From a virus: DNA of 31,182 bases. Location: positions 1-31,182 of the IMG/VR virus record IMGVR_UViG_3300046171_000018. One strand, 5' to 3'. Both the position numbers and the translations under genes were made by a program. Under the pieces are notes generated by a model. That model ran no database searches, was not told where the DNA came from, and saw nothing but the letters and a program-made list of their open reading frames with translations. Positions 6,999 to 30,038 of this stretch are shown here, piece by piece; the first letter of the stretch is position 1, and every line of letters begins with the position of its first letter.

Positions 6999-7276
6999 AC
7001 GATTGCTTGTTTCCCATATTTAGTTTTTCTTCTTGTACCAGAGTCCTCTACTAAATTCAAAACTTGTAACTCTCGGCATCTAGCAGTTACAGAACTTAAA
7101 GGCATATCTAACTCATCAGCTATTTCATAATTAGTTAGTGCGTTAAGTTTTATAAGATTATAAACTTGTTCTCTTTTAGTTTTAATCTTAGGCTTTATTG
7201 TGGCTAGTGCTTCTTGGCTAGTCTTGGTGTAATTACAAGACTCGTAATCAGTATCAAATATATCTAGTTGCTTCAT
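6980..7276 (-). CDS. Winged-helix DNA-binding protein, first gene of the leftward block
   Basis: A 98-residue protein with a winged helix: a basic lead-in (IKTKREQVYNLIKL), HTH at about residues 49-70 (NYEIADELDMPLSSVTARCREL), then a wing (LVEDSGTRRKTKYGKQAIVW). It resembles phage or MarR-like 'ALT..EIA..L..P.SSVTARCREL' proteins that accompany HNH and replication genes. It has a GGGAGA ribosome binding site and is preceded by a strong RNA hairpin (7296-7328), so its translation may be controlled. As the first gene leaving the divergent control region, it may regulate one or both blocks. Confidence 0.72.
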   Translation of the reverse strand: MKQLDIFDTDYESCNYTKTSQEALATIKPKIKTKREQVYNLIKLNALTNYEIADELDMPLSSVTARCRELQVLNLVEDSGTRRKTKYGKQAIVWQRRK

Positions 7277-7295
7277 CTCGTTTTCTCCCTATTAG

Positions 7296-7328
7296 GTGCT
7301 GGGCTGGAGAGAGAGGCCAACCCAACAC
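7296..7328 (-). promoter_or_regulatory. 12-bp leader hairpin upstream of the first leftward gene
   Basis: On the complement the RNA reads GTGTTGGGTTGG, a 9-base loop CCTCTCTCT, then CCAGCCCAGCAC. All 12 positions pair, two of them as G-U. On the plus strand these two would be A·C mismatches, so the structure belongs to the leftward transcript. It ends about 20 bases before the ATG at 7276, just upstream of the AGGGAGA ribosome binding site, and its loop is complementary to that site. Confidence 0.6.
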
Positions 7329-7388
7329 AAATGAATTTAAAAAATTAAATTCAAGTTTAAGTATTAGATATGAAAATAATAAATACTT

Positions 7389-7410
7389 ATCTCTTGCGAG
7401 ATGTAATCTC
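7389..7410. repeat. Three-part ATCTC/GAGAT element (alternating dyads)
   Basis: ATCTC (7389-7393), GAGAT (7398-7402) and ATCTC (7406-7410) allow the middle element to pair with either flank. As DNA, the first two form a perfect 5-4-5 dyad of repressor-operator size; as RNA, the two hairpins exclude each other. Confidence 0.45.
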
Positions 7411-7544
7411 TCTAACATTTTTTTAATTATAATCATATCTTTAATTGATTCGTTTTTTATATTTGATTTGTTTAAATTGCAAGAATTAAAACACAAGTTG
7501 TTAAAATAGTTAAAAAAGCTATATTTTATGCGATAAATTAGCTA

Positions 7545-7573
7545 TTGCATAATGCAACCTATTTTTATAGATT
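7545..7573 (+). promoter_or_regulatory. Candidate rightward early promoter with overlapping dyad
   Basis: TTGCAT (7545-7550) could serve as a -35 and TAGATT (7568-7573) as a -10 with a 17-base spacer, upstream of the first rightward gene. The -35 overlaps the TTGCA-TAA-TGCAA dyad (7545-7557), so a protein bound there would block it. The match is modest in such AT-rich DNA. Confidence 0.3.
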
Positions 7574-7621
7574 ATTCGTATGTTAAATAAATTAACTAAC
7601 AACAAACAAGGAGAGAGTAAA

Positions 7622-7888
7622 ATGGACGAACCAACATTAAAAGAAAAAATAAAATTGTTAGAGGAACTTAAAGACCTTATGGAACAATTAGAAAAAGTAG
7701 AACATAGAACTTGTTTTACTAATTATTTTTCAAATGATTTTAAAGATAAGTATTATGCAATGTCTAATGATATTGATTTTGAAATAAATTGGTTAGAAGA
7801 TGAAGAAGTTAAACCAATTGAAAGTAAAGATATAAAAGTTAATGTTGATAGATTACAAAAACTTGGAATTATAAAAGAGGGGGCATAA
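7622..7888 (+). CDS. Hypothetical early protein, helical and acidic
   Basis: An 88-residue protein, the first gene of the rightward block. An AAGGAGAGAG ribosome binding site lies 5-6 bases before ATG 7622, so this start is preferred over the in-frame ATG at 7580. The N-terminal half is a charged helix (LKEKIKLLEELKDLMEQLEKVE), the middle is aromatic and the end is basic/hydrophobic. No family is recognised. The TAA stop overlaps the next ATG (TAATG). Confidence 0.65.
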   Translation: MDEPTLKEKIKLLEELKDLMEQLEKVEHRTCFTNYFSNDFKDKYYAMSNDIDFEINWLEDEEVKPIESKDIKVNVDRLQKLGIIKEGA

Positions 7889-11048: not shown

Positions 11049-11185
11049 TGGATTCTACTAACGATATATTGATTTGCTCCCCATATATGAGTTTAGTGGA
11101 TAGAGTGGTCAGCGAGAGTTGGCCACTTGTTAAAAAGAATTTTGGGAAGAATAACGATAGTTTATATAAACGGCTATCACTTTGA
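11048..11185 (+). CDS. 45-residue hypothetical protein, last gene of the rightward block
   Basis: Starts in a TAATG overlap and reads MDSTNDILICSPYMSLVDR with a basic C-terminus. It has no recognisable motif. The overlap and the clean end just before the convergent hairpin support it. A 7-bp stem at 11104-11127 lies inside it. Confidence 0.5.
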   Translation: MDSTNDILICSPYMSLVDRVVSESWPLVKKNFGKNNDSLYKRLSL

Positions 11186-11204
11186 ATTGACCCAAAATAA
11201 CTAT

Positions 11205-11239
11205 GGGGTGGTTTTTATTTCTCTCTCTTTAACCACCCC
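11205..11239. terminator. Convergent-junction hairpin, possible two-way terminator
   Basis: GGGGTGGTT (11205-11213) and AACCACCCC (11231-11239) form a perfect 9-bp GC-rich stem with a 17-base loop, exactly between the ends of the two blocks. No long T-run follows on either strand (the T/C-rich stretch is in the loop), so it is not a canonical intrinsic terminator. Its position suggests it stops or slows converging polymerases. The left arm is upstream of, and the right arm touches, the leftward gene's stop. Confidence 0.5.
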
Positions 11240-11484
11240 TAGTTTCTAGTAATATCAAAATGTTTTAAATCAGTATCTTCGTGGATTCCTGTATAAGAAT
11301 ATTCGTAATTAATTAAATCAACATCACTTCGTTTTTTAATTTCTTCGACCATATCATTAACTTTAGTGAAGTATGGAAAAGTATCTATGAATCTAAAATT
11401 AACATAAGAACCATAAGGATTGTTATTGGTTTCTAATTGTAGTTCTAGGTCTGTTATAACGAAATCAACTTTTACTTTGTCCAT
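11239..11484 (-). CDS. Hypothetical protein, last gene of the leftward block
   Basis: An 81-residue, acidic, mixed alpha/beta-looking protein, beginning MDKVKVDFVITDLELQLE and ending HFDITRN. I do not recognise a family. It follows the holin gene by 12 bases and its stop codon lies in the arm of the junction hairpin. It may be a late or lysis-associated accessory protein, on position only. Confidence 0.6.
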   Translation of the reverse strand: MDKVKVDFVITDLELQLETNNNPYGSYVNFRFIDTFPYFTKVNDMVEEIKKRSDVDLINYEYSYTGIHEDTDLKHFDITRN

Positions 11485-28322: not shown

Positions 28323-28793
28323 CTAAATCCATGTAAAGGCTTCTCTCTCATTAGATACAATAGTTCCAGCTGCATCTACATCATATTCTACACCATCTTC
28401 TAATATCATTCTCCATTCGATATTGTATTGGCTCATGTAATATTCTTGCATTCTTTCAAATCTATCTTTTTCTGTTTCTGGTCTAAATTTAGTTAATGCT
28501 GGTAAATAGAATCTTCCAAGAAATAGATAAACACCAGCCCGTTCAAACTGATCTAAATTAACTTTTGTATTAACCATCTCAGCAGTATTAAGAACTGTAA
28601 TATCTGTAAATATATTTGTTTTATATACAGGCCACCATTCTATTCTTAACTGTCTAAAAATATCATTAGTAGTTTGTGCTAGAAAATTAGTTGTTTCTGT
28701 AGCAGTTGTAGATATACCAAAATCAAACGCATCAGGTTGATATTTTAAAACATCTGATGTGGTAATAACATCTGCACCTGTATAATTAGCCAT
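28323..28793 (-). CDS. Head-tail connector protein
   Basis: A 156-residue protein beginning MANYTGADVITTSDVLKYQPD, followed by helical regions ('FRQLRIEWWPVYKT', 'FERAGVYLFLGRFYLPALTKF') and a polar C-terminus ending NEREAFTWI. The 'TGADVITTSDVL.YQP..FDFGI' start is one I associate with head-tail connectors or stoppers of marine siphophages. Its position between the capsid and neck genes agrees. Its residue pattern is that of an adaptor sitting below the portal. Confidence 0.75.
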   Translation of the reverse strand: MANYTGADVITTSDVLKYQPDAFDFGISTTATETTNFLAQTTNDIFRQLRIEWWPVYKTNIFTDITVLNTAEMVNTKVNLDQFERAGVYLFLGRFYLPALTKFRPETEKDRFERMQEYYMSQYNIEWRMILEDGVEYDVDAAGTIVSNEREAFTWI

Positions 28794-28919: not shown

Positions 28920-29133
28920 CTTTTTTCTTCCTTGTTTTTCGTTTCTTTTTTAAAGGTACTACATTTTCTGCAACAACTTCTTTAACTTCTTTTACAACAT
29001 CTTGTTCTAGTTTAAAACCTCTAAAATCATACATACCTTTATTAGTTTGATAATCTAATTCACTTCTAGTGATTGTTTTGTTACCTCTTTTAAGAGTAAC
29101 CATCTTCTCATTTGATAATACTAATTTAACCAT
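28891..29133 (-). CDS. Small hypothetical protein downstream of the capsid gene
   Basis: An 80-residue protein: a beta-like start (MVKLVLSNEKMVTLKRGNKTITRSE), 'TNKGMYDFRGFKLEQDVVKEV' and a C-terminal basic cluster KKKRKTRKKK followed by an acidic tail. An AGGAG ribosome binding site lies upstream. Small proteins in this place sometimes stabilise capsids or act in head completion, but no motif tells here. Confidence 0.6.
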   Translation of the reverse strand: MVKLVLSNEKMVTLKRGNKTITRSELDYQTNKGMYDFRGFKLEQDVVKEVKEVVAENVVPLKKKRKTRKKKDEQVDLETN

Positions 29134-29147
29134 TTTATTCTCCTATG

Positions 29148-30038
29148 TTAGTTGCGAGGGCAGTTTCCCACCCTCACAAAGTATCCAATTATTATTGGAT
29201 TGATGAATCGAAAGTGTAACTCAACACCATATGAATCATGGATTTCTCCAACACCATATACTGAAGTAGCAACAATCTCGTCTGCTCTAAGAGAAGCATC
29301 TCTTTGAGTTTCGATTTTAACATCTTCCATCATAGCGATTGCTAGTGCATCTCTGTGGAACGCACCACCTTTGTAATCTCCAGCATTACCTGTATTAGCA
29401 ATGTTTGAAGTTTCAAAGACAGGCATACCAGCTAATCTACCAACAAAACCTGATCTTAATGCTTCGTTTGATAAGTCATTTGCATTTGCGTTTGCAAAAG
29501 TATTAGTCAAACCAGCTTTTAAGTCATAAGCGATTTTAGGGTGTAGAACAACTGCACAATCGTCAATGTTAAGAGCATTTTCTCTTAAAGTTGAAAGTGC
29601 TTGGAAGATTGAAGCAGAAGAAATAGCCCCTGTTCCATCTCCTAATGCACTTGAAAAGCCATCAAACAATGCAGTTAAATCTGCGTCTTGTTTTCTTGCT
29701 AGTGCTTCTCCAAACAATTTACCAATATCTCCAGCAACATTTCTTGGTGCTGAATTTCTTGCTAAGTCTGTTAGAGTAGTCATAACACCAACCTCAGATG
29801 CAGTAATAGTTACTGAACTAGGGTTGATTGCTGTGTTAGATAAGTCAGTTGCTTCTGCTACTGCTGATGCTGATACATTTGCATAAACAGGAACTTCAAC
29901 TGCTTTTCCACCACCTGTGATCGCATAGTTTTTAACTAAGTTTCTCATGATGGATTTTTCAGAAGCTACGAATTGTGCTTCTGCTACTATCTCTGTGTAT
30001 AGTTCCGATAGCGTAGAACTTGTGCTTTCGTTTGCCAT
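29148..30038 (-). CDS. Major capsid protein
   Basis: A protein of about 281-296 residues with an HK97-fold pattern: 'LSELYTEIVAEAQFVASEKSIMRNLVKNY', 'KAVEVPVYANVSASAVAEATDLSN', a segment with 'VGVMTTLTDLARNS', 'ALARKQDADLTALFDG', 'AVVLHPKIAYDLKA', 'GFVGRLAGMPVFETSNI', 'GGAFHRDALAIAMMEDVKIET' and 'YGVGEIHDSYGVELHF'. It follows the scaffold gene and is intact except at the very end. In the given frame it ends at 29148 after 'RFINPIIIGYFVRVGNCPRN'. Removing one base at about 29210 gives ...HFDSSIQ and a stop at 29192-29194, before two hairpins. The shorter end is preferred. Confidence 0.88.
   Translation of the reverse strand: MANESTSSTLSELYTEIVAEAQFVASEKSIMRNLVKNYAITGGGKAVEVPVYANVSASAVAEATDLSNTAINPSSVTITASEVGVMTTLTDLARNSAPRNVAGDIGKLFGEALARKQDADLTALFDGFSSALGDGTGAISSASIFQALSTLRENALNIDDCAVVLHPKIAYDLKAGLTNTFANANANDLSNEALRSGFVGRLAGMPVFETSNIANTGNAGDYKGGAFHRDALAIAMMEDVKIETQRDASLRADEIVATSVYGVGEIHDSYGVELHFRFINPIIIGYFVRVGNCPRN
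29152..29200 (-). terminator. Double hairpin behind the capsid gene
   Basis: On the complement, ATCCAAT-AATA-ATTGGAT (29200-29183) is followed by TTGTGAGGGTGG-GAAA-CTGCCCTCGCAA (29179-29152): 12 pairs (three are G-U) closed by a GNRA-type tetraloop. Neither is followed by a T-run, so it is probably a partial terminator or an mRNA 3'-stabiliser rather than a full stop; genes continue 19 bases further on. Confidence 0.6.

Follow-up and report, generated by a model that had tools for sequence, protein, structure and literature searches.

A conserved, apparently undescribed folded RNA leader of pelagiphages with a CUCUC loop complementary to a 5' box and, in most leaders, to the Shine-Dalgarno site

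We analyzed a virus record of 31,182 bases, taken whole from IMG/VR (IMGVR_UViG_3300046171_000018; hereafter the window), and found that a hairpin just upstream of its first leftward gene, here called P3, forms the 3' part of a leftward leader of ~145 nucleotides (nt). We regard the existence of a conserved RNA element at this position as practically certain, and the element is apparently a folded RNA that has not been described before. It heads a main operon in Pelagibacter phage HTVC111P and relatives among the pelagiphages. In the 5' to 3' direction, the order is a promoter-like block, a GAGAG box, a hairpin with a GNRA tetraloop (P1), a hairpin P2 with UUUCAUAUC, an optional hairpin P2b, P3 with its CUCUC loop, the Shine-Dalgarno (SD) site, and the ATG. 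We favor, at about even confidence, a cis-acting 5' leader in which the CUCUC loop alternates between the GAGAG box and the SD. The parts of the leader in the window are as follows.

7433-7453, minus strand: promoter-like block ACGAATCAATTAAAGATATGA, upstream of the leader; present as an exact 21-mer in 79 IMG/VR stretches
7407-7413, minus strand: 5' box AGAGAGA, complementary to the P3 loop
7389-7402, minus strand: P1, hairpin AUCUC-GCAA-GAGAU with a GNRA tetraloop
7359-7388, minus strand: P2, A/U hairpin AAGUAUU...AAUACUU with the conserved UUUUCAUAUC (7376-7367), from alignment A4
7332-7353, minus strand: P2b, optional A/U hairpin UGAAUUUAA/UUAAAUUCA, from the reading of leaders
7296-7328, minus strand: P3, 12-bp stem with the CCUCUCUCU loop (7316-7308), the hairpin noted earlier
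7284-7290, minus strand: AGGGAGA, the SD of the first leftward gene, with complementarity to the P3 loop
6980-7276, minus strand: first leftward gene, an open reading frame (ORF) of 98 codons, PHROG 1123, function unknown

A previous sequence-only reading of this DNA had described P3 as a 12-bp stem that exists in the leftward RNA by virtue of its G-U pairs, and folding agrees with that description. Read on the minus strand from 7328 to 7296, the arms and loop are GUGUUGGGUUGG / CCUCUCUCU / CCAGCCCAGCAC, giving 12 pairs, two of them G-U, and a 9-nt loop. Over 45 nt, the leftward RNA folds at -19.5 kcal/mol (z -4.8, none of 200 shuffles equally stable) versus -12.3 kcal/mol for the rightward strand (z -1.5, 17 of 200 shuffles equally stable); within 87 nt, the leftward stability excess is smaller (z -1.4, 22 of 200). 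The P3 region ranks as the most stable 45-nt segment among 20,758 taken from both strands at a step of 3, and P3 is the only stem of 12 pairs with at least 7 G-C pairs and a 5- to 12-nt loop on either strand of the window. No 12-pair stem of this type arose in 20 mononucleotide shuffles of the window.

Viral loci were sampled with the first leftward protein (the best 80 of 86), and the leader is recognizable in 75 of these 80 IMG/VR loci, 73 times by script and twice (L018 and L078) by eye. The remaining five (L040, L051, L077, L079, and L080) are too short upstream; L077 still has P3. From the 75 distinct leaders found, 72 were parsed for stems, leaving out L069 (imperfect stem), L078 (misparsed), and L144 (truncated), and these 72 contain 34 distinct P3 stems; CUCUC is part of the loop in 71 of the 72. 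A covariance model, R1, was built from 16 leaders and, when run on 72 sources, returned 63 leaders at E <1e-4; the nine sources without one were the five short loci named above and four genome contigs. In alignment A4, which has 60 rows and was fitted to the model, 93.1% of cells are paired; 500 shuffles gave 70.8%, and sliding gave 33-42%. Two-sided changes occur at all 12 P3 pairs. The conservation of pairing in relatives, which had been proposed as a check of the hairpin, thus holds strongly. In addition, RNAalifold predicted P3 anew from A4, with 11 pairs, every one of them with two-sided changes, and swapping arms between stems that are less than 60% alike gave a mean of -7.3 kcal/mol versus -17.8 kcal/mol for native stems (one common loop).

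A structure other than RNA, whether DNA palindrome, operator, origin, terminator, or leader peptide, is a very improbable source of this conservation. Such a reading can draw on the divergent intergenic setting and on UUUUCAUAUC, an inverted copy of the GATATGA of the promoter-like block, so that a DNA-binding site may overlap P2. The pairs themselves speak against it. Across 32 distinct stems, with the position set on Watson-Crick pairs only, we counted 317 Watson-Crick, 55 G-U, 1 A-C, and 11 other combinations; the excess of G-U over A-C (55 to 1) marks the leftward RNA as the pairing strand, and this bias led us to reject a DNA palindrome. We also rejected an intrinsic terminator, as there is no U-run after P3 and no terminator-like match there, and a conserved leader peptide, as only 50 of 73 leaders have an ATG shortly before the box, and the frames that begin there range from 9 to 74 codons. 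A comparison with Rfam 15 gave no match at the gathering threshold in the whole window or in loci L078, L063, L121, and L074, and a permissive scan of 7240-7640 returned only a weak microRNA match (E 2.4). A literature search by title or abstract start, partly made with broad searches and with subscription papers mostly outside it, showed no description of this leader among the top matches listed.

The other parts of the leader are conserved to different degrees. The promoter-like block keeps a similar spacing to the 5' box in the leaders read, and it has no match to the sigma-70 consensus; judging from sequence, transcription would start next to it. P1 carries a GNRA tetraloop in 73 of 75 leaders (74 parsed leaders plus HTVC026P), on stems that are many and varied. 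For P2, 82.9% of cells in A4 are paired over 5 pairs with no two-sided changes, and its pairing is therefore not proven by covariation. The P2 loop UUUUCAUAUC may also be a DNA operator half-site; the loop and the promoter motif are altered together in HTVC026P and in G012 (GTTATG/CATAAC), and not together in L023 and L055. The P2 loop UUUCAU was considered as a start-codon mask and rejected by eye, since it is not altered in step with the start of the first gene. P2b takes the form AACUUG-GUAA-CAAGUU in other leaders or is absent. The first leftward protein is possibly DNA-binding; its similarity to sigma-70 region 4 and to IclR helix-turn-helix domains is sub-threshold.

A distant blastn search of the leader region against a phage collection matched two records, the Pelagibacter phages HTVC111P and HTVC202P. 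Relatives of the first gene at E 1e-5 are found in three phage records (these two and HTVC026P), all of which bear the leader, and no convincing leader match was seen in HTVC010P, HTVC112P, HTVC034P, or HTVC204P. The leader of the window is immediately followed by the PHROG 1123, HNH nuclease, and DnaD-like genes; HTVC111P and HTVC202P have the same operon under the leader, with one or two extra genes first. In HTVC026P, the leader (MN698240, 908-782, minus strand, 46 bits) heads another operon, across the divergent region, and the PHROG 1123 gene (gp15) is not under it. A weak model match in that phage (L276, 5030-5135, plus strand, 21 bits) consists of a hairpin and then CCUAAGAGGGAG before gp15. 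Among the 73 loci, 24 have other DNA, mostly another gene, between the leader and the PHROG 1123 gene, and a number of the 79 stretches found by scanning with the promoter block have the leader before different first genes. Whatever the gene, 70 of the 72 parsed leaders have P3 ending 15-24 nt before the first ATG; in L038 and L060 the distance is 11 nt. A link to one target gene or metabolite was rejected, as the leader heads several genes.

In the wider gene family, we read 41 loci and found the leader in 14 (7 of P2 type, 6 of a variant type, and 1 truncated). The remaining 27 either have the gene within an operon or show no recognizable element within 800 nt. A scan of genome contigs with the first gene gave four distant relatives, none titled SAR11, and the SAR11 genomes were not searched with the RNA model. 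The G001 match and a second G017 match appear to be chance or another hairpin. Second leaders elsewhere in the window were rejected: a weak match at 11127-11262 is the region of a 3' hairpin described below, and one at 29131-29230 is a plain hairpin that precedes a gene. Within the latter region, a very stable hairpin (29179-29152, minus strand, -19.4 kcal/mol) falls within the last part of the capsid gene, immediately ahead of the SD of the following gene, and has no CUCUC loop.

The loop of P3 has two candidate partners. In the window, the AGGGAGA site is placed as the sequence-only reading had it, just downstream of the hairpin (5 nt away, 7290-7284, with the ATG at 7276-7274), and the loop is complementary to it over 7 pairs, including one G-U. 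We assembled 69 distinct sets of loop, box, and SD, with L078 restored by hand and HTVC026P added (L018, with a GAGGG box and a slightly different promoter, stood outside), and took a run with at least 5 Watson-Crick pairs as a match. The loop is complementary to the 5' box in 68 of the 69 sets, or in all 69 once L063, whose loop matches an upstream A-run, is included, versus 19% of shuffled regions; it is complementary to the SD in 62 of the 69, versus 26%. The suggested loop directed against the ribosome-binding site is thus kept in most relatives, and a cis switch by this loop is plausible, in a more complex form. The hairpin is nevertheless one module of a larger leader, whose 5' GAGAG box matches the loop more constantly than the SD does. 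The earlier proposal is thus partly supported: it named the right element and a plausible main idea, within too small a frame.

A few natural variants change in a coordinated manner. In L063, box, loop, and SD have changed together, from GAGAG/CUCUC/GAGAG to AAAAU/UUUUUU/AUAAAG. Searching again, now with the L063 gene, retrieved 70 loci; R1, applied to 48 of them and to two further sources (50 in all), yielded 19 matches at E up to 1, divergent leaders included. In L395/L397/L398/L401 and in L414, CUCCCU loops accompany AGGGAG SDs; in L402, the loop and SD are UCCUCUCUCU/AGAGAGAGGA, an exact match of 10 nt; and in L418/L420 they are UGCUCUC/GAGAGCA. Given conservation and these coordinated variants, we infer that both loop pairings can form.

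The cis-acting reading that we favor would work as follows. P1, P2, and P3 would fold as the RNA is synthesized. Pairing of the P3 loop with the 5' GAGAG box would create a loop-to-strand pseudoknot and leave the SD free, and pairing of the same loop with the GAGAG-type SD a few bases downstream would mask the SD and turn translation off. Since the 5' box is transcribed first, the default state would be ON; if the 5' end were lost or captured, or a factor were bound, the first gene would go OFF and, by coupling, so would the operon. The mutual exclusion of the two pairings, the direction of control, and the trigger are putative parts of the scheme. We favor it because position, strand, conservation, and variants fit a masking loop with a 5' decoy.

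Several observations weigh against this scheme. The loop-SD match is absent in L037, L059, L063, L064, L067, L118, and HTVC026P, as well as in G012/G002 and L388. Permutation tests did not establish co-variation of the loop with the box or the SD. For loop and box, 32 of 1000 permutations were as good as the observed pairing with L063 and 325 of 1000 without it; for loop and SD, the corresponding numbers were 652 and 923. In the extended set, 108 of 2000 (SD) and 121 of 2000 (box) were as good. When one leader per clade was taken, the median p was 0.08 (SD) and 0.05 (box), or 0.16 and 0.50 without L063, under a clade assignment that is our own grouping and handles phylogeny crudely. Most leaders share CUCUC and GAGAG, which leaves little variation for such tests, and L063 carries much of the signal. 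There is also a question of geometry: the linker to the SD is mostly 4-7 nt over a stem of 12-15 bp, and by a rough A-form estimate, such a short linker places intramolecular loop-SD pairing with an intact P3 near the steric limit. No such constraint applies to the 5' box, whose linker is long.

In addition, L388, L395, and L414 have neither a GNRA hairpin nor a 5' box that matches their P3 loop. In these leaders, AAUUAUCUCU (AUUUAUCUC in L414) has two complementary sites, one in a 5' segment and one in the start region including the AUG. By eye, this strand makes 11 pairs with the start region in L388, 8 in L395, and 9 in L414 (one of them G-U). In the minimum-energy fold, it is paired with the start region in L395, whereas L388 and L414 have it paired with the 5' segment. 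The design looks bistable and, in favor of the scheme, would follow the same either-or logic with another part of the leader. R1 scores 25.6 bits for L388 (E 0.006) and 18.7 bits for L414 (E 0.23), and the membership of these two rests mainly on gene, position, and anatomy.

Two known systems resemble the cis-acting scheme. In the P4 CI RNA and the c4 antisense RNA of P1/P7, which are processed from a leader and confer immunity, a leader segment is complementary to upstream and downstream sites in the same transcript and acts at translation or termination. The pelagiphage leader likewise has complementary boxes flanking the loop, but its structure differs, and it has no Rfam match (the c4 antisense RNA is listed as RF01695; PMC2864571). 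In tisB mRNA, a 5' hairpin loop pairs with a flanking strand, the ribosome-binding site is sequestered, and S1 and the 30S subunit are attracted ~100 nt upstream of that site (PMC7708055). The tisB case shows that such a loop pseudoknot at the 5' end is able to govern a masked ribosome-binding site. The leader hairpin, unlike that of tisB, abuts this site and has a loop resembling an anti-SD.

The same complementarity could also serve in trans. The CUCUC loops of the leader (or of a P3 piece), together with that of a hairpin that closes the rightward operon, might bind GAGAG-type SDs of other phage mRNAs, a possibility that we consider unlikely. The hairpin concerned is the following.

11199-11244, plus strand: 3'-terminal hairpin of the rightward operon, its 17-nt loop UUUAUUUCUCUCUCUUU containing CUCUCUC; a possible partner, conserved in relatives

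This hairpin overlaps the stop codon of the last leftward gene. The run TCTCTCTC occurs in the window in the leader loop, in the 3' hairpin loop, and at one coding-DNA site at 28342. From 79 loci and the window, we obtained 38 distinct versions (one further locus was too short), with 12 distinct stems; 10 odd positions in them are G-U when read on the rightward strand, and 0 when read on the leftward. CUCUC is kept in 26 of the 38 distinct loops, and in L304, L340, and L342 it is found in an added hairpin. In contigs with both the leader and the 3' region, picked by eye from names, CUCUC is present in the 3' loop of 17 of 17, and the L063 phage retains it too. The leader also stays with the promoter while the downstream gene changes, which fits an RNA acting in trans.

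GAGAG sites had further been placed upstream of many genes of this phage, including the first rightward gene. The latter holds; the former is overstated, as 4 of 46 window ORFs have GAGAG at most 20 nt upstream of the start, the first rightward gene being one of them. Across phages, such sites are nonetheless enriched with the leader: they precede 27 of the 237 genes counted for the window and for HTVC111P, HTVC202P, and HTVC026P, whereas four pelagiphages lacking the leader have them at 6 of 240 genes (Fisher p 1e-4); with the leader's own genes removed, the first count is 25 of 233 (p 3e-4). The 46 window ORFs in this census were hand-picked, without annotation, and the start of the first rightward gene was set one base off, with no effect on the GAGAG count. 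By our reading, 21 of the 27 genes lie in the regions flanking the divergent promoter, not among the structural genes. Against a trans-acting RNA, the leader-bearing phages are related, so that these gene counts are not independent; CUCUC is missing from the 3' loop of the L316 and L317 phages, both of which bear the leader; the L063 phage has an altered leader loop but retains GAGAG SDs in 3 of 27 ORFs (by a simple caller); and there is no U-run after P3 and no separate small transcript known.

Cuckoo RNAs, which have an anti-SD loop and an alphaproteobacterial range, are the closest parallel to such a role. They combine unconserved stems with a conserved loop, in 2-4 such hairpins (PMC4504443). 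The leader is similar in the diversity of its stems and the constancy of its loop, and differs in having one CUCUC hairpin per leader as read, seated in a phage 5' leader with other hairpins and with candidate cis partner boxes on both sides.

To a similarly small degree, we can imagine the leader as a platform for a protein or the ribosome, such as a put- or nut-like antitermination element, a standby site, or a 5'-end stabilizer, in which pairing of box and loop locks the fold. Its 5'-terminal position adjoining the promoter-like block, the GNRA hairpin, the greater constancy of loop-box over loop-SD complementarity, and its place before different first genes of a long operon are all consistent with this. 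The put element of HK022, ~70 nt with two stem-loops, binds RNA polymerase and lies just after an early phage promoter (PMC9378689), and the leader, compared by description only, is likewise a structured RNA just after a promoter-like block. Unlike put, it has a hairpin held near the start codon and a loop mostly matching the SD, neither of which is needed by an element acting on RNA polymerase, and no Rfam family matches it.

Least expected of the RNA-based readings is a new phage RNA family acting as a genome-wide GAGAG/CUCUC code, in which CUCUC loops in the leader and 3'-end hairpins of the two main transcripts would pair with GAGAG boxes and SDs within and between these transcripts, the leader RNA combining control of its own operon with action in trans on early genes. 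We consider this improbable.

SAR11 bacteria are the most abundant bacterioplankton of the marine surface, and their phages are ubiquitous (PMC10504331). For Skadi, a phage of another type, it is reported that terminators and riboswitches could not be identified (PMC10504331). The leader described here, with its strong covariation, offers a defined and testable control point at the head of a main operon of cultured phages, and the variety of genes behind it suggests that the transcript, and not a single pathway, is what is controlled. We know of little else on gene control in pelagiphages. Should the GAGAG/CUCUC code prove true, competition or immunity between co-infecting pelagiphages would be possible, comparable to that of the leader-derived RNAs of P4 and P1.
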